NCBI RefSeq assembly: GCF_000023325.1
Contig: NC_012785.1
Location: 62,001 to 126,000, forward strand
DNA from: Kosmotoga olearia TBF 19.5.1
Lineage (GTDB): Bacteria > Thermotogota > Thermotogae > Petrotogales > Kosmotogaceae
Length of the DNA: 64,000 bases
Reading direction: 5' to 3'
In this document: positions 19,587 to 62,391 of the stretch, piece by piece
Layout: each line of letters opens with the position of its first letter
How positions within the stretch are numbered: position 1 is the stretch's first letter
Notes under the pieces: generated by a model
What the model saw: the letters and a program-made list of their open reading frames with translations, nothing else
What the model was told of the DNA's origin: nothing
Database searches by the model: none
Translations under genes and position numbers: made by a program

Positions 19587-20438
<852 letters not shown>

Positions 20439-25554: not shown

Positions 25555-25995
25555 GGACAGACACCTTTTTTTTGGTGTCTGTCCCGTGTGCGTATAAAGT
25601 CAATAAGTTTCAGGTTTTTCCCAGGGAGGCCATAAGGAATTGACCCATTACCCACCTCAGGTGTCCATAATTCTCTTCTTCTGCAACTTCAGAAAAAAAC
25701 GTGTCTAGAAAAGGCAAGTGCATTCGGTGGGAGATAAACCTACTTGGATAAAAACCGAAACCCCTTACTTGATGCGTAAGTAGCGGTTTGATTCTTATTT
25801 CTCCAAACGCTGGTTTTTGTATTGCCAAAATTCCAGAAAAATATGCAAATAAGAAAACAGAGACAAGAAAACAGGGACAGACTGAGGTAAAAAAATAGTA
25901 GGGTCAAGAGATGGCGCCTTAGGTTTAGGCAACACCTATCCGGTTTCTCCCCGTTTCCTTCGGGAGTGCCTCACTAGTATTGCCGTACCCAGGTT

Positions 25996-26046
<51 letters not shown>

Positions 26047-26236
26047 TCCTGTCTGCTTCGTGCCAAGAGTTATGTGACCTATCGGCCTGGAAGTGCTTTC
26101 GGGATGTAATATCGTGTTTCTTAATCGTTGTGTATTCCCGAGCCTTCCCGAATCAAAGATTTGTTATAGACTTTACACGCCACCGTTTTTTCTTACCACC
26201 TGCTATATTTTTATTTTTCTATGCAGATATCTGTAT

Positions 26237-27943: not shown

Positions 27944-28710
27944 GTGTGCCCGGCATGACATACAACTATAGGGTGAAAGTCCCGAATGCGGGGAGCGAGA
28001 TAAGCATTAGCTGAGGGCAAGGGTGTCACTGGTAACGGTGAATCTGAAGGAAGCCTAAGGCAAAATCCGGAACTGAACGAAAGTGAACCAGCGTTGGCCG
28101 GTAGAGAGAGTAACCTTGCCTTACATGGGGAAGCCCGAGCTCCAACTCTACAGGTTGGGATGGCAGGATTCGGATGAAAGCTGTATGTCTTACCCGGGGA
28201 AGTCCTCACTCGTCCCAAAATGGGTAAGCCGGAACATGGGGAGACCCAAGGACTGGTGAAGCGGAGGAGGATGGCAGACGAACCCGTAGTAGTGTTGAAC
28301 CTCTCTGAAAGGAGAAGGGACTATCGCCTTGAGCGATGGGGGTAACAGGAACCGAAAGGGCCTGTTACTTGCGAAGGGGGGAAGGATTGAGGAAATGGCA
28401 CAAAGGAAAGCGAGTATAACAGGAGCCCGTAACGGAGGCTGAAATGCCGACGGTGGTCTGAAATGGCTGGGGCAGGCAAGTAATCCATTATAGGGTTGGG
28501 TATATTCCTCGAAAGGGGTAGAAAACCGATGCCTGTGTGGAAGAAGAAACCGATTCTGTTATATGCGACTTATTCTGAAGGCCATGCGGAGGTAGTATGA
28601 TGGTATTCTACCACCGTCGGAGAATCCGATACTCAATCCATGAGCCGTGTACGTTGGCCCGTACGCACGGTTCTGTGAGAGGACGGGGGGGATCCCCCCT
28701 CCTACTCGAT
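27944..28710 (+). mobile_element. ORF-less group IIC-type intron
   Basis: The 5' end GTGTGCCCGGCATG, the inner CTATAGGGTGAAAGTCCCGA, TCTTACCCGGGGAAGTC, a domain V hairpin (GAGCCGTGTACG ... CGTACGCACGGTTC, ~28,651-28,682) and a domain VI hairpin ending CCTACTCGAT match the group IIC pattern I recall for the Oceanobacillus iheyensis intron. The 767-nt length leaves no room for a reverse transcriptase. Boundaries are confirmed inside the window: GGTAAG before and CCTGACTTCGTCAGG after are joined without the intron at 27,802-27,822. It needs a protein made elsewhere to move, if it still can. Confidence 0.88.
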
Positions 28711-32594: not shown

Positions 32595-32708
32595 ATGTTA
32601 AAGCTAAGAGAAAGATCAGTTTGCAGTAAAAATTCCATATTTGCTTATTATTGGTGGTTTAGGGGATTGCCCTCTTCAGGGGTTCCCCCAATACCACTTG
32701 CTACATAA
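32595..32708 (+). CDS. Leader peptide with Tyr-Tyr-Trp-Trp, attenuator control of the transporter
   Basis: 37 codons beginning ATG TTA AAG, with GGAGG 8-12 bases upstream, ending TAA 32,706-32,708. Codons 18-21 are TAT TAT TGG TGG (32,646-32,657), giving FAYYWWFRG. Tandem Trp codons are highly unlikely by chance and match the classic trp leader arrangement. Low charged tRNA-Trp (or Tyr) would stall a ribosome here. The downstream RNA contains a terminator and a competing antiterminator (next entry). The product itself is probably without function. Confidence 0.85.
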   Translation: MLKLRERSVCSKNSIFAYYWWFRGLPSSGVPPIPLAT

Positions 32709-32768
32709 TTGGGGAACTCATAAGGTAGAAGAAGAGGGCATCTGAAAAAGATGCCCTCTTTTTTTATA
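32669..32768 (+). promoter_or_regulatory. Transcription attenuator (antiterminator/terminator) before trpX
   Basis: Terminator: AAGAGGGCATCT (32,732-32,743), loop GAAAA, AGATGCCCTCTT (32,749-32,760), then a T-run. Antiterminator: GCCCTCTTC (32,669-32,677) pairs perfectly with GAAGAGGGC (32,731-32,739), destroying the terminator stem. A middle stem GGTTCCCC/GGGGAAC (32,681-32,717) also forms. A ribosome reaching the stop codon covers the 5' antiterminator arm; one stalled on the Trp codons leaves most of it free. Confidence 0.82.
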
Positions 32769-43008: not shown

Positions 43009-43187
43009 GATAAAAACGCGACAGACTCTTCTGTAGGATATTTATGAGGAAACCCCGGATTTTCGCGGGCTGGTAGTTATTAGATATGGAGGATTTTTAT
43101 GTCAAAGGTAATGATGATGTAGAATGGTAAATGAGGTGTTGGAGAACCAAGGCTTTTTATTTTAATACCTGCTACGGAGGGGAAAAT

Positions 43188-43706
43188 ATGGATTATGAGG
43201 CTTTGTTTAAGGTCACTTATGGCATGTACGTGATTACTTCGAAGACGAATGAGAAGAAAAACGGGCAGATTGCTAATGTTGTGTTCCAGGTTGTAGCTGA
43301 ACCGCCAACAATAGCGATCTGCATAAATAAACAGAACTTAACCCATGACTTCATCCAAGAAAGCAGAGTATTTGGAGTGTCAGTTCTATCCCAGGATACC
43401 CCATTAAAACTAATAGGACACTTTGGATTTAGGTCCGGAAGAGAGTTAGACAAGTTCAAAGAAATAAATCACAAAATAGGGGTAACCGGTGTCCCGTTGT
43501 TGGAAGACTACTGCATAGCGAACTTAGAAGCGAAAGTGGTAAACGTAGTTGATGTTGGAACCCATGTGCTTTATATTGGAGAAATCGTTAATGCGGAAGT
43601 TGTCGATGAAAAAGAACCCATGACATATGCCTATTATCATGAAATTAAGGGAGGAAGATCCCCGAAGACTGCTCCGACATATGCAGACGGAGGCTCACAA
43701 CGTTGA
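43188..43706 (+). pseudogene. hrb: High-molecular-weight rubredoxin, copy A, rubredoxin domain lost
   Basis: 172 codons from ATG 43188 (GGAGGGG upstream). Residues 1-~160 are a flavin-reductase-like domain (YGMYVITSK, NGQIANVVFQVVAEPPTIAI, DTPLKLIGHFGFRSG, GVTGVPLLEDYCIANLEAKV). After KTAPTYA the frame enters hairpin-array sequence and ends DGGSQR*. The C-terminal rubredoxin domain present in copy B (from ~55,716) is absent. The flavodomain may still fold, but the intramolecular electron carrier is missing. Confidence 0.8.
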
Positions 43707-44047
43707 GGCTTGCGGAGGCTGGCATTTGATAATACGACGCTTGCAGAGGCTATCAGCTGGTAGAGCGACGTTCGAAGACTGAGGCTTGCGGACGCTGATG
43801 AAATCCGAGAACCGAGAATCGAGAACCGGTAAGCACGCTAGCGCGTGGGTAAGCCCTGCTACGCTGCGAAGTGCTGGACTACGTCCAGGACGCTTGCAGA
43901 GGCTGTCAGCTGGTGGAGCGACGCTCACGAGGTTGAGGCTTGCGACGCTGTCAGTTAATAAAGCGACACGAACCGCAAGCGGTTGACACGAACTCCTTCG
44001 GAGTTGTTCCGAACCACTTCGTGGTTGTCTCGAACCGAAAGCGGTTG
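43707..44047. repeat. Mini-hairpin array after hrb copy A
   Basis: Contains CGCTTGCAGAGGCT blocks, GAGAACCGAGAATCGAGA words, CTGGAC-TAC-GTCCAG at ~43,873, and the phased run AACCGC-AA-GCGGTT, AACTCC-TTC-GGAGTT, AACCAC-TTC-GTGGTT and AACCG-AAAG-CGGTT from ~43,969 to 44,047. Same family as 35,468-37,080. No gene. Confidence 0.88.
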
Positions 44048-44049
44048 AA

Positions 44050-44147: not shown

Positions 44148-44176
44148 TTGACAAAACCCAATTTAATTGGTAAAAT
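44148..44176 (+). promoter_or_regulatory. Promoter of the arginine operon
   Basis: TTGACA (44,148-44,153), 17-base spacer, TAAAAT (44,171-44,176), 33 bases ahead of the leader-peptide ATG. Confidence 0.82.
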
Positions 44177-44209
44177 CCCAAAAATAACACTTTTTGGAGG
44201 ACATATTGA

Positions 44210-44311
44210 ATGTTGAATGATTCGTTGAGATCTCAAAAACATTTGAATATAGTAAATGTATTAAACATTCGTAGACGTCCAAAGCGCCGGTGGGTGATTT
44301 CGAGCGCTTAG
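44210..44311 (+). CDS. Arg-rich leader peptide of the arginine operon
   Basis: 33 codons from ATG 44210 with GGAGG 9 bases upstream, ending TAG 44,309-44,311. Codons 20-28 read IRRRPKRRW, with CGT AGA CGT at 44,270-44,278 and CGC CGG at 44,285-44,290: five Arg codons in seven positions. This is the arrangement of amino-acid leader peptides; arginine shortage would stall the ribosome here. It lies between a good promoter and an intrinsic terminator in front of argG. No ARG box was identified by eye. Confidence 0.85.
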   Translation: MLNDSLRSQKHLNIVNVLNIRRRPKRRWVISSA

Positions 44312-44370
44312 CTTTTTGTTGCTTGAACGCCCACACGGCCATATCGTTTTGATATGGCCGTTTTTTTTTT
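44282..44370 (+). promoter_or_regulatory. Attenuator before argG
   Basis: Terminator CGGCCATATC (44,336-44,345), loop GTTTT, GATATGGCCG (44,351-44,360), then ten T. Competing pairs: GCCGGTGGGTG (44,286-44,296) with CGCCCACACGGC (44,328-44,339) with a small bulge, which takes bases of the terminator's 5' arm; and AAGCGC (44,282-44,287) with GCGCTT (44,304-44,309). Stalling at the Arg codons would decide between these folds. Confidence 0.75.
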
Positions 44371-44423
44371 ATACATTCTAAGTCTTCAACATAAACAACC
44401 TAAAAATATTGGAGGTGTTGCAT

Positions 44424-45710
44424 ATGAAAAAAGAAAAAGTTATTCTTGCGTACAGTGGCGGACTGGATACTTCTGTAATCCTGAAATGGCTTTCAGAGAA
44501 AGGCTTCGAAGTCATTGCTTTTGTTGCAAACGTGGGGCAAAGGGACGATTTCGACGCAATCAAGGAAAAAGCCCTGAAAACCGGTGCTAAAAAAGTGTAT
44601 GTTGAAGACTTACGAAAAGAATTTGTCACAGATTTTATCTTTCCAGCTTTGATGGGAAATGCAATTTATGAAGGAAGATACCTCCTTGGAACTTCTCTTG
44701 CCAGACCTTTAATAGCCAAGAAACAGGTCGAAATCGCCGAAAAAGAAGGCGCGCAATACGTCGCCCACGGGGCCACCGGCAAGGGGAACGATCAGGTTAG
44801 GTTTGAGCTCAATTACGCTGCATTGAATCCACATTTGAAAATAATATCTCCCTGGAAGGATCCGGAGTTTCTTGAAAAATTCAAAGGCAGAACAGACCTG
44901 ATAAATTACGCAAAAGAAATGGGAATACCTATAACGGTGAGTGAGGAAAAGCCTTACAGTGAAGATGAAAATCTGATGCACATATCACATGAGGCAGGAA
45001 AGCTTGAAGATCCAATGTACATACCGGAAGAACATATCTTCAATTGGACAGTCTCTCCAAAGGACGCTCCGGATGAGGAAACGCTTCTTGAGATACTCTT
45101 CAAAAATGGAATACCTACAAAGGTAGTCAATCTCGATGATGGAACTGAAAAAACAGATCCATTGGAACTTTTTGAGTATCTGAACGAAGTAGGTGCCAAA
45201 AACGGAGTTGGAAGGGTTGACATGATAGAAAACAGGTTCATAGGGATAAAATCCCGAGGCGTGTATGAAACACCGGGTGCAACTATCCTCTGGATCGCTC
45301 ATAGAGATCTTGAAGGTATAGCCATGGATAAAGAAGTGCTTCATCTCAGAGATATGTTGACTCCAAAATTTTCCGAGTTGATTTACAACGGGTTCTGGTT
45401 CTCTCCAGAGATAGACTTCCTGTTGTCCGCATTTAAAAAAGCCCAGGAAGCGGTGGACGGAAAAGTTGTCGTTTCAATATACAAAGGAAACGTGACACCG
45501 GTTTCAAGATATTCCCCCACTTCCCTTTACGACCAGGCGCTTTCAAGTATGGATGTTGAAGGCGGGTTCAATGCAATTGATTCTAAAGGCTTTATAAACA
45601 TACACGCTCTCAGGCTTAAAGCTCATAATCTTGTTTTAAAAGGAAAAGACCCCTTCGCCTGGAGAAAGGAGATTGGAAATGTCTATAAAACTCTGGGAAA
45701 AGGGATATGA
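44424..45710 (+). CDS. argG: Argininosuccinate synthase
   Basis: 428 residues from ATG 44424 (GGAGGT upstream). The ATP-pyrophosphatase motif [12 protein letters not shown] is at 9-20, followed by [16 protein letters not shown] (~115-130) and the citrulline/aspartate region [17 protein letters not shown]. It joins citrulline and aspartate using ATP. Normal length. First structural gene behind the Arg attenuator; argH starts 32 bases before its stop. Confidence 0.95.
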
Positions 45711-46875
45711 AGTTGATCCCATAATAGAAGCATTTACAATTGGAAACGACTACAAAACGGACATGAGGCTAATAAAATACGATATAAAAGCCTCTATGGC
45801 CCATGCAGAAATGCTTTGCAAAATGGGATACCTATCTCGGAAAGAACTTAAAGAGATTAAAAAAGCCCTTGAAGAGCTTCTGGCTCTTGTCAACAACGGA
45901 AAGTTCGTAATAAAACCCGAAGATGAAGATTGCCATACGGCCATAGAAAATTTTTTGACACAAAAAATAGGAGAAGCGGGAAAGAAAATACACACTGCAA
46001 GATCAAGAAACGATCAGGTTTTAACTGCTCTAAGACTCTTTTACAAAGACGAACTCGAAAACATCGTGCAACTCATAAAACTGCTTCAAAAAGCAATTGA
46101 GGATTTTTCAACGAAGTATGGTCATGTTCAATTTGCAGGTTTTACACACACCCGAAAGGCAATGCCAACGGACTTTAAAACGTGGAGCGAGGCATTATAC
46201 GATTCCCTCGAAGATGACTTGAAACTCCTAAAAACAGCCTATGAAATAATAGACCAATCGCCTCTCGGCACAGGTGCTGGTTATGGTATCCCGATCGAGA
46301 TAGACAGGGAATACACTGCAAATGAACTTGCTTTCTCCAGAATCCAGAAAAATCCTATTTATTCACAAAACAGCAGGGGAAAGTTTGATTATTTGATCCT
46401 TCATGTGCTTTCTCAGATAAGTTACGACCTTAACAGAGTTTCAAGCGATATCATATTCTTCTCACTTCCTGAAGTGGGATATATGGATCTCCCAAAAGAG
46501 CTCTGCACTGGAAGTTCAATAATGCCACAGAAATTGAACCCGGATCCTCTCGAGCTCGTTAGAGGGTATCACAACAGGATCGTATCGAGAATGATGGAAA
46601 GCGTCATTACATCCTCAAATTTGATATCCGGATATCACAGAGATTTCCAGCTTTTAAAAGAAAGTGTCATAGAGTGCTTCGATGTTGCGAAGACTCTTTT
46701 AAAGGTAATGAAAATCGTATTCGAAAGGCTGAGCGTCAACAAGGAAAATTGCGAAAAAAGCATAACGGAAGAGGTCCTTGCGACTCAAAAGGTTTATGAA
46801 ATGGTTAAAAAAGGTACCCCGTTTAGGGACGCTTACAGAAAAATAGCCCAAAGTTACGGAGGCGAGAAGAAATGA
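45679..46875 (+). CDS. argH: Argininosuccinate lyase
   Basis: 398 residues from ATG 45679 with AAAGGAG upstream, overlapping argG. The fumarase/aspartase signature [13 protein letters not shown] is near residue 276, with TARSRNDQV at ~108-116 and [12 protein letters not shown] (usually THLQxAQP) at ~155. It splits argininosuccinate into arginine and fumarate. ATGA overlap with argC. The THTRKAMP variant is as in other short ArgH forms I recall from thermophiles. Confidence 0.93.
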
Positions 46876-47891
46876 TAAGGGTTGGAATAATAGGTGCAAC
46901 TGGCTACACAGGATTGGAACTCGTGAGAATACTCACCAATCACCCTGATGTTAAAATAACCTTTCTTTCTTCCAGGAGTTTTGCGGGGAAAAAATTGAAT
47001 GACGTTTATCCCTTCTCGCTAAAAAATGAAACCCTCGAAGAGATAGACCCTGAAAAAATCTCGAAAAATTGTGATGTTGTATTCACGGCACTTCCAGCCG
47101 GTGTTTCCTATGAAATTGCCAGAAAATTGAAAGATGTTCGAATAATCGACCTTGGAGCTGATTTTAGATTCGATGACCCTGCCGTTTACGAGGAATGGTA
47201 TTCTAAAAAGCTACCTGATTATGATCCTACTGAAAGGGTTTACGGCTTAACAGAGCTGTACAGGGAAAAGATAAAGAATGCCAGATTCGTTGGAAATCCA
47301 GGCTGTTATCCTACGAGTGTTTTGCTTGCAACGGCTCCACTATTGAAGAACGGTTCACTGGATGAAGAAACAATCATTGTGGATTCAAAATCCGGGGTTT
47401 CAGGTGCCGGAAAAAAGGAATCGATAGATTACTCATTTTCTGAACTTAGCGGGAGTCTGAAGGCGTATAACGTGTCAAAGCACAGGCATGTCCCGGAAAT
47501 GGAGCAGGAAATGTCTAAACTTTGCGGTAAAAGACTAAAACTTGTCTTCACTCCACACCTCGTCCCGATGGTTAGAGGAATCCTTTCGACGATATATGTG
47601 AAAACGGATCTATCTTTAGATGAGGTTTATGAATTATACCGGGAATACTATGGAAAAGAGAAATTCATCCACGTCCTTCAACCAGGCGTTTATCCTTCAA
47701 CAAAATGGACTTACGGTTCAAATCACGCTTTCATATCTATGGCAAAAGACGATAGAACCGACACGCTCATCCTGATAAGTGTGATAGACAACCTCGTAAA
47801 AGGAGCGTCCGGACAGGCTGTTCAAAACATGAACGTCATGTTTTCCTTAGCCGAAGATGCAGGGCTTTCTTTCAATCCAATTTATCCATAA
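46872..47891 (+). CDS. argC: N-acetyl-gamma-glutamyl-phosphate reductase
   Basis: 339 residues. NADP-binding [14 protein letters not shown] at 8-21, the catalytic cysteine in [12 protein letters not shown] near 147 and HRHVPEME near 205. It reduces N-acetylglutamyl phosphate to the semialdehyde. Starts within the argH stop (ATGA) and ends 15 bases before argJ. Confidence 0.95.
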
Positions 47892-47906
47892 AAGGAGGTC
47901 GAAAAA

Positions 47907-51260
<3,354 letters not shown>

Positions 51261-53907: not shown

Positions 53908-54290
53908 ATGGATTATGAGGCTATGTTTAAGATCACTTACGGTATGTACGTTGTCACTTCAGAAACGAATGGGAAGAAAAATGGGCAGATTGCTAATGTC
54001 GTGTTCCAGGTTGTAGCAGAACCACCGACAATAGCGATTTGCATAAACAAACAGAACTTAACCCATGATTTCATTCAGAAAAGCAAAGTATTTGGGGTGT
54101 CAGTTCTATCCCAAGATACCCCACTGAAGCTTATAGGGCACTTTGGATTTAAATCCGGAAGAGAGTTAGATAAGTTCAATGATATAAATCACAAAATAGG
54201 GGTAACCGGTGTCCCATTGTTAGAAGACCACTGCGTAGCGAACTTAGAGGCAAAAGTGGTAAACGCAGTTGATGTTGGTACCCATGTGGT
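53908..54290 (+). pseudogene. hrb: High-molecular-weight rubredoxin, copy B, 5' part
   Basis: From ATG 53908 (GCGGAGG upstream) to the insertion point of an IS256 element. It encodes the flavin-reductase-like domain up to VDVGTHVV, nearly identical to copy A (YGMYVVTSE, NGQIANVVFQVVAEPPTIAI). As it stands, translation runs into the element and stops after GYVKKVL. Removing the element and one 9-bp duplication restores the frame exactly into the 3' part at 55,567. Confidence 0.9.
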
Positions 54291-55557
54291 TGGCTATGTC
54301 AAGAAAGTGCTGTAAAAATAACCCTGTATCCTAAAACAGGCTAAGATCCCATGTTTAGATATCTCCTTCCAAGCAGCCATTCTTCGTTAATGTCAAGTAA
54401 GATTGCGACAGCCAACCTCAAAAGTGCCGCATCATTTGGAAAAGCTCCTACCACTCTAGTACGCCTTTTTAGTTCTTTGTTTATCCGTTCCAGCATATTC
54501 GTCGTTTTTATCCTTTTCCAATGATCCCGTGGATATTTCTGGTAATTAAACAAGCCGAATATGAATCTTTCACAGGTTTCCGCCGCTTTTTTGAAGCCTT
54601 CTTCTTCAAGTTCCTCAATAAAGGCTTGTAATTTTTTCGCACTTTCCAGGCTCTCGTTCAACCGTTCTGCTATCTCTTTCCAGCGTTTACGAGGTACTTT
54701 TTTCAGCACATCCCTCACAAAATGTACATGGCACATTTGCCAGCTCGCTCCAATAAAGGCCTTTTTCACCGCTGAGATTATCCCCTTGTGACCATCTGAG
54801 ATGACAAGTTCTACTCCTCTCAATCCACGGTTTTTCAATTCTTGGAAGAAGTCTTCCCAAAAGAGTTCATCTTCAACATCGGCGATCTTTGCACCAAGTA
54901 TCTCTCTATGTCCATCTTTTCTCACACCGGCTACCACATAAAGAGCTTTATTGACGTATCTAACCCCGTCCCTGACTTTGAAATAGCTGGCGTCCACGAA
55001 AAGATACGGTATCTCCTCCTCTATTTCCCTGTTAAGAAACTCATACACCTTTTCGTCCAGTTCCCTGGCTATATTAGAAACTGTTCCAGGTGAAAGTTCT
55101 TCTGCTCCTAAGGTGGATATTATTTCCTTTATCCTGCGAGTAGAAACACCCTGAAGATATGATTCGACAATAGCGTTCTTTAATGCTTTCTCTACTCTTG
55201 AGTATTTATCAAAGACCCTGGTTTCGAAGGGGAATTCTCTGAATTGGGGTTTCTTCAACTCCAATTTTCCTAATCTGGTGTTCAAACTTCTTTTTCTATA
55301 ACCGTTGCGGTGTGCTCTTCTGTTTTTTGTTCTCTCGTAGTAGTCTGCTCCAGCCTGTATCCGGGCTTCATATTCCATAACCGTATTCAAAAACCAGGTT
55401 AGAAGATTTCTCATTCCTTCTTCATTTTCTGTGAGAAATTGGAGTATAATATCTTTGATTTCCATGGGCCCTGTATCCCTCCTTTGTATGGTTTATGTGT
55501 TCTTCCTATTCTAGGATACAGGGCTTTTTTTATTTTTACAGCATTTATTTTATACTG
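54291..55557 (-). mobile_element. IS256-family element inserted in hrb copy B, 9-bp target duplication
   Basis: Flanked by CCATGTGGT at 54,282-54,290 and 55,558-55,566. Terminal regions share GCTGTAAAAATAA and CCCTGTATCCTA in inverted orientation. One intact transposase gene on the minus strand. The clean duplication implies recent, possibly reversible, insertion. Confidence 0.93.
54341..55465 (-). CDS. IS256-family (mutator-type) transposase
   Basis: 374 residues. Catalytic blocks: [14 protein letters not shown] (first D), [14 protein letters not shown] (second D) and [20 protein letters not shown] (E). [20 protein letters not shown] closes the domain. It is a DDE enzyme that excises or copies the element. 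Length is normal for the family. Clearly different from the IS256 fragment at 11,345. Confidence 0.93.
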
Positions 55558-55873
55558 CCATGTGGTTTATATAGGGGAAATCGTTCATGCGGAAGTTGTC
55601 GATGAAAAAGAACCTATGACATATGCCTATTATCATGAAATTAGGGGTGGGAAATCCCCAAAGACTGCGCCAACATATGTAGAAGAGAGAAAAGAAAACA
55701 AGGACAGTGGCAAGAAAAAATACCGATGCAAAGTATGTGGCTACATTTATGACCCAAAAAACGGTGATCCGGATTCTGGAGTAGCCCCCGGAACCCCTTT
55801 TGAAGAGTTGCCAGATAACTGGGTATGCCCTGTATGCGGTGTCGGAAAAGATAAATTTGAAGAGGTACGGTAA
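55558..55873 (+). pseudogene. hrb: High-molecular-weight rubredoxin, copy B, 3' part with rubredoxin domain
   Basis: Continues the interrupted gene: [35 protein letters not shown] linker, then rubredoxin [20 protein letters not shown] and [17 protein letters not shown] with both CxxC pairs for one iron. In an intact protein it would take electrons from the FMN domain to reduce partners such as flavodiiron O2 or peroxide scavengers. With copy A lacking this domain, no complete hrb is present in the window. Confidence 0.9.
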
Positions 55874-62206: not shown

Positions 62207-62378
62207 CATGCCCACCAGCGCTCCACGAGACACAGCCCCGTGACAGTTATACGGGTATTCCCCGTATACCCAGGAGTACAGAGCTTGGGGTACCCTGTAT
62301 CCTTCGGCACCTTCGCCTTTCAATCCGTCCCGATCCCCATGATGGACGGTTTACTCATCTCCGGTGCACCTCTGTGGG
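62207..62378 (-). ncRNA. Lysine riboswitch (L box)
   Basis: Reading the minus strand: AGAGGTGCACC near the 5' end, GATTGAAAGGCGAAGGTGCC, GAAGGATACAGGG, GGGTATACGGGGAATACCC, ACTGTCACGGGGCTGTG and GTGGAGCGCTGG. These are the conserved words of the lysine riboswitch aptamer in their usual order. Position before asd agrees with T. maritima as I remember it. The aptamer is followed by a terminator and the asd ribosome site, so it probably turns transcription off at high lysine. Confidence 0.92.
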
Positions 62379-62391
62379 GTAAATTATGTTG

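Follow-up and report, generated by a model that had tools for sequence, protein, structure and literature searches.

The leader upstream of the arginine biosynthesis operon argGHCJBD of Kosmotoga olearia TBF 19.5.1 is very probably a ribosome-mediated transcription attenuator that senses the supply of arginyl-tRNA. It lies in a 64,000-nucleotide (nt) stretch of the genome (contig NC_012785.1, positions 62,001 to 126,000, forward strand), here called the window, and coordinates below are window positions. The leader combines a short open reading frame (ORF) with clustered Arg codons, for which we propose the name argL, with an intrinsic terminator and three alternative RNA pairings. The assignment is made from sequence comparison and RNA folding.

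Leader architecture and alternative pairings

The leader is compact, and all of its elements are on the plus strand. A sigma-70-type promoter (44148-44176) consists of TTGACA at 44148-44153, a 17-nt spacer and TAAAAT at 44171-44176. The Shine-Dalgarno sequence GGAGG (44196-44200) is 9 nt 5' of the ATG of argL (MLNDSLRSQKHLNIVNVLNIRRRPKRRWVISSA; 44210-44311), which has homologues elsewhere and runs for 33 codons from ATG at 44210 to TAG at 44309-44311. Its peptide contains RRRPKRR, with five Arg within seven residues, and its C-terminal end reads ...NIRRRPKRRWVISSA. The predicted sensor codons CGT AGA CGT (Arg-Arg-Arg) occupy 44270-44278. The intrinsic terminator, ACGGCCATATC-GTTTT-GATATGGCCGT followed by ten T (44335-44370; stem 44335-44361, T run 44361-44370), has a stem pattern that occurs once in the window versus 0.00 expected. 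The argG Shine-Dalgarno sequence is at 44411-44415. argG, encoding argininosuccinate synthase, is the first gene of the operon (44424-45710) and is followed by argH, argC, argJ, argB and argD (45673-51147), all identified by NCBIfam in the order argG-H-C-J-B-D. The first-pass annotation had named the promoter, GGAGG, the 33-codon ORF with its Arg run, the ten-T terminator and the operon, and direct reading finds each of them in place. Folding of the leader is stronger than that of shuffled sequences (z = -4.7; 0 of 200 shuffles as good).

Three alternative pairings, 1:B, A:C and C:D, can be read in the leader RNA. Strand 1 (AAGCGC, 44282-44287) and strand B (GCGCTT, 44304-44309, adjoining the leader stop codon) form a protector, or anti-antiterminator, hairpin. 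Strand A (GCCGGTGGGTG, 44286-44296) is the antiterminator 5' arm; it lies within argL, 16 nt 3' of the first sensor codon, and its 3' end is 13 nt before the stop codon. Strand C (CGCCCACACGGC, 44328-44339) is the antiterminator 3' arm, and 44335-44339 double as the base of the terminator 5' arm. In the argG leaders compared, A:C overlaps 4 to 6 nt of that arm.

No folding is needed to define strands 1, A, B and C (CACCCACACGGC), strand 1 beginning at the Arg codons. Strand C is misplaced when whole leaders are aligned generically with MAFFT, so covariation was tested by swapping duplex partners between species rather than by counting columns. Both A:C and 1:B pair in each of nine species, and swapping partners weakens both duplexes; for A:C the mean is -24.6 kcal/mol for cognate strands versus -18.9 kcal/mol for swapped strands. 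Only one in 100,000 permutations was as good as the observed mean for A:C, and the result was the same for 1:B. When each of six lineages was represented by one sequence, the true assignment of partners was the best of all 720 for both duplexes. Examples of covarying pairs are GCCGG:CGGC, GCCGCC:GGCGGC and GCCGCG:CGCGGC.

Conservation, mechanism and alternatives

Conservation was examined in 103 Thermotogota genomes, 33 of which have ArgG; no second member of the family of K. olearia has it. Nine of the 103 have the stem GGCCATATC-N-GATATGGCC, each in a single copy just 5' of argG, which starts 25 to 64 nt 3' of it. Homologous leader and terminator precede argG in K. olearia and eight other genomes. 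An ORF with an Arg cluster and a start codon is found at all nine stem sites, with a clear Shine-Dalgarno-like sequence at most, and similar TTGAC/-10 arrangements lie 5' of most of the other argG leaders. In all nine, the stop codon is 28 to 33 nt from the terminator, and the first Arg codon is 13 or 16 nt 5' of strand A. Poor conservation of the Arg run would have spoken against the first-pass proposal, and it was not seen. Arg stands at position -3 before strand A in 9/9 leaders and at -4 in 8/9, with synonymous changes among the codons (CGT, CGG or CGA at -3; AGA and AGG also occur). The peptides are 28 to 36 residues long and keep the C-terminal pattern RRR..(C/K/G)RW/RRV. Their N-terminal two thirds diverge freely, and no column from -14 to -7 exceeds 5/9 identity.

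A covariance model built from the nine argG leaders was used to search for others, and nine Petrotogaceae genomes proved to have Arg leaders upstream of argJ. Most of these leaders end in ...NN(D/N)RRRxxSRW(I/F)(I/V)STG..., and their first Arg codon is again 16 nt from strand A. Counting the argG leaders, the leader occurs in two or more distant groups, and the arg operon behind it begins with either argG or argJ. No second Arg leader was seen before either of the OTC-like genes of the K. olearia genome. The small chain of carbamoyl-phosphate synthase (PF00988) was not found in this complete genome, with all 14 controls positive.

The proposed mechanism couples translation of argL to the choice of pairing. 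With ample Arg-tRNA, a ribosome would reach UAG and cover strand A, C:D would form as the terminator, and transcription would stop before argG. With scarce Arg-tRNA, a ribosome would stall at CGT-AGA(-CGT), opening 1:B and leaving A free to form A:C; this would capture the GC foot of the terminator beside the U-tract, and RNA polymerase would enter argG. If the leader were untranslated, 1:B would withhold A from C and termination would be the default. A paused ribosome covers roughly 12 nt past its own A site. A pause at either of the first two Arg codons would therefore place the edge of the footprint just short of strand A at 44286, while a ribosome at UAG would reach over the 3' part of the strand. 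Given a first Arg codon 13 or 16 nt from strand A, a stalled ribosome would free A and one at the stop codon would mask it. Synonymous Arg codons and unconserved upstream residues are what would be expected if the pause of the ribosome, and not the peptide, is the signal.

Bacterial arginine operons are mostly controlled by ArgR, and the first-pass annotation had proposed a search for argR and ARG boxes as a check. ArgR (PF01316, Arg_repressor) was not found in the complete K. olearia genome (one contig, 2,302,126 bases), and the Thermotoga maritima control was positive. Only eight Thermotogota genomes have an ArgR above the cut-off; all belong to family f10 and all have argG. ArgR and the Arg leader do not occur together: the eight have no leader, and the 18 genomes with a leader have no ArgR; these genome counts are not phylogenetically independent. 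Seven further argG genomes have neither ArgR nor a leader, one of them (G061) with its contig cut at argG. The ArgG tree groups the leader genomes apart from the f10 genomes with ArgR, with poor support for the branch that divides them. Allowing up to two mismatches, no ARG box (TGAATWWWWATTCA) lies within 8 kb of the leader, and the arg promoter has no ARG-box-like site near it; the window has five, versus 10.4 expected.

Three observations weigh against attenuation as proposed. At 65 C equilibrium, the full antiterminator is less stable, by 2.5 to 6 kcal/mol in 9/9 leaders, than the terminator combined with a shortened A:C helix. As the terminator is favoured at folding equilibrium, antitermination would have to be kinetic. 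Taken alone, the upper terminator stem has a stability of about zero at 65 C. Nucleation of the terminator may therefore be poor once its base has been captured by A, which would ease the energetic difficulty. The second point is the A/T-rich upper stem itself, ATATC/GATAT (44337-44359 and homologues), which does not differ among the nine argG leaders and differs little in leaders for other amino acids; this strict conservation of sequence exceeds what pairing needs and is not required by the attenuation model. The third comes from RNA-seq of K. olearia, where Kole_0092-0097, listed as arginine genes and probably argGHCJBD, go up at 30 and 40 C (PMC5674127). This rise may reflect other inputs.

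The conserved stem could instead point to a protein or other trans-acting factor that binds GGCCATATC/GATATGGCC and controls termination, with the leader ORF secondary. Such a factor would account for a stem more conserved than a plain terminator requires, identical in nine genomes despite varied loops and closely similar in other amino-acid attenuators. Against it, loop lengths range between 4 and 6 nt, substitutions in the stem are compensatory across the wider family, and the Arg cluster, its spacing and the A:C covariation are left unexplained, so we hold this explanation to be very unlikely. The variable spacer (4 to 6 nt) led us to reject a DNA operator at the palindrome GGCCATATC-N-GATATGGCC. 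A riboswitch or T-box was also rejected, there being no Rfam match; the best sub-threshold candidate was DUF3800-I (E 0.5), far under the cut-off.

Arrest by the nascent chain, in which the leader peptide would sense free arginine or ornithine in the exit tunnel rather than tRNA charging, as in fungal AAP and enterobacterial SpeFL, deserves somewhat more weight and is still improbable. An Arg-rich peptide of 28 to 36 residues with a conserved C-terminal pattern would suit it, and consecutive Arg codons also occur in the Salmonella speF leader (PMC6386406). However, the freely varying N-terminal two thirds are not those of a conserved upstream peptide, RNA pairing by strand A accounts for the conserved C-terminal residues, and the sensor residues of related leaders are swapped to suit their own operons. 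Least likely of all, in our judgement, is a constitutive leader whose terminator belongs to transcription from upstream or holds expression at a constant basal level, with an Arg run that does not sense in K. olearia. In its favour, the K. olearia 1:B hairpin is weaker than in several relatives (-9.6 versus about -23 kcal/mol). Against it, a promoter stands between the upstream DNA and the terminator, no gene ends directly before, and all parts of the leader are conserved jointly. Attenuation that responds to arginyl-tRNA remains our preferred explanation.

Related leaders and other features of the window

Searches with the nine-leader covariance model and with a terminator-core model both retrieve sequence-related leaders across Thermotogota, and in those read in detail the sensor codons mostly fit the next gene. 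Leaders with Lys codons precede diaminopimelate epimerase (dapF; NKKYVK) and aspartokinase (lysC; NKKQVK). Lys/Arg-His leaders (KKHHVK, RKHHVK) and an RHHSR leader precede family-3 amino-acid binding proteins, an RKHDK leader precedes an amino-acid permease, and an RRIK leader precedes an oligopeptide-type permease. In genomes of the Thermotoga and Pseudothermotoga types, HHH and HHHH leaders stand before hisZ, and a WWW leader is found before a TrpB-like gene. These downstream genes were identified with Pfam/NCBIfam. The fit is unclear for aliphatic leaders (IIYVVLILPAGG) before a putative Xaa-Pro dipeptidase-like amidohydrolase and for the NQPEPKVWP leader (L205), which has the same core and precedes citrate synthase in an f2-family genome.

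Related attenuators were recorded at loci L135, L137, L143, L144, L148, L150, L153, L154, L157-L159, L176-L178, L185, L186, L189, L192-L203 and L206-L208, with a HHHH leader at L207. L204, L209, L210 and L211 were rejected as attenuators; they look like ordinary terminators without a leader. In all 54 related leaders tested, 49 with the terminator first picked and five after the right terminator had been assigned, pairing between the end of the ORF and the terminator foot outdoes at least about 95% of shuffles. Compensatory changes in the stem include CATATC/GATATG, TACATC/GATGTA and TCACATC/GGTGTGA.

These similarities suggest that the argL leader belongs to a family of Thermotogota attenuators in which one A/C/terminator core is combined with different sensor codons. 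The core comprises an A strand GCC(C)GGTGG, a C strand CCACCGG and a terminator GGCCAYATC/GATRTGGCC, and its sensors are Arg, Lys, His, Trp, mixed basic and aliphatic. Leaders with this core may descend from a common ancestor and have swapped sensors, or they may have converged on a single geometry. We consider the chances evenly balanced that it is a phylum-wide chassis, copied before different amino-acid operons, retargeted by exchange of sensor codons alone, and replacing ArgR and other DNA-binding repressors in many families.

A second leader of this kind lies in the window. Its ORF (MLKLRERSVCSKNSIFAYYWWFRGLPSSGVPPIPLAT, 32596-32709, plus strand) contains Tyr-Tyr-Trp-Trp-Phe (YYWWF) and is followed by a terminator at 32732-32765, and an A:C antiterminator (GCCCTCTTC/GAAGAGGGC) can be paired. 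A WWW leader in genome G002 (locus L160) is related to it and has a similar terminator. The gene after the YYWWF leader encodes a PF04392-type ABC transporter, probably for uptake of tryptophan or other aromatic compounds. The first-pass annotation had taken a trp leader in the window, together with argL, as a sign of widespread attenuation in the lineage. The wide distribution is supported by the Lys, His, Trp and mixed basic leaders across the phylum; the part about a trp operon is not, since the YYWWF leader precedes a transporter.

Outside Thermotogota, 80 named argG loci were checked. Three of them (L088, L100 and L119) have a candidate ORF with an Arg run (e.g., IIRRRRPSLEGTGV) and a terminator before argG, and only L088, from Neomarinimicrobiota, also has a supported antiterminator (4 of 500 shuffles). 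L088 suggests that Arg attenuation may have arisen independently more than once. Another argG locus (L040), from a metagenome-assembled genome labelled Synergistetes, has a T-box-like element (GGTGGTACCGCGGG) and a terminator upstream.

Several other features of the window were recorded. The DNA 5' of the arg promoter (43690-44048) is filled with degenerate repeats (GACGCTTGCAGAGGCT..., CGAACCGMAAGCGGTTGA). A flavin reductase-like gene (compare 43131-43706) has a second copy at 53908-55873 that is interrupted by a transposase ORF (54341-55465, minus strand). A lysine riboswitch (RF00168, 96 bits) lies at 62208-62382 on the minus strand, and parts of group II introns are at 28026-28710 (plus), 19937-20087 (minus) and 25898-26048 (minus).

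Relation to known attenuators

Attenuators of the trp, his, leu and thr operons of E. coli and Salmonella share with argL a peptide rich in the amino acid of the operon, a pause or protector hairpin, an antiterminator, an intrinsic terminator, and a stop codon placed so that the antiterminator is masked. Unlike them, argL would sense arginine and control arginine biosynthesis in Thermotogota, its antiterminator takes only 4 to 6 base pairs at the terminator foot, and the terminator stem sequence is kept between leaders for different amino acids. The Rfam Trp, His, Leu and Thr leader models gave no match to the argL leader at the gathering score or at E up to 5. An Arg-type T-box would, like argL, read tRNA-Arg charging before arg genes; no T-box matched the leader in Rfam at the same limits. 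Control by ArgR and ARG boxes, of the T. maritima type, acts on the same target operon in sister families, and the leader-bearing genomes lack ArgR.

Arg codons also act as sensors in orf34 (speFL) of the Salmonella speF leader, a short ORF with consecutive Arg codons in which the speed of translation alters RNA folding; its response is abolished by Lys replacement and kept with synonymous Arg codons (PMC6386406). Unlike argL, it controls ornithine decarboxylase, and hence polyamines, through Rho and mRNA decay, with no intrinsic terminator in the leader, and no likeness of sequence or RNA core to argL was noted. The Bacillus hisS and hisZ leader peptides (PMC2965389) are His-codon attenuators outside Proteobacteria, as the His leaders of Thermotogota would be. 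They differ in belonging to another phylum and in having no common core that we noted, and the Thermotogota leaders have Arg, Lys, His, Trp and mixed basic sensors.

A 2010 survey by Naville and Gautheret reported leader-peptide systems only from Proteobacteria, Actinobacteria and some Firmicutes (PMC2965389). Reviewed attenuators respond to His, Leu, Thr and Trp, as well as Ile/Val and Phe, most of them being proteobacterial, and a gamma-proteobacterial origin was considered likely (PMC3766115). A paper on the genome organisation of T. maritima does not mention attenuators (PMC3636130). Neither an attenuator of arginine biosynthesis nor a shared chassis with swapped sensors was found in the open-access literature searched. 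The type of mechanism is known; what would be new is its use for arginine biosynthesis in Thermotogota and the retargetable core.

The proposed system would place a conserved attenuator of arginine biosynthesis in a deep-branching thermophilic phylum, beyond the groups covered by surveys. argL and its relatives make it testable whether attenuators evolve by swapping sensor codons, and whether coupling of transcription and translation at 65 to 80 C suffices for ribosome-controlled termination.
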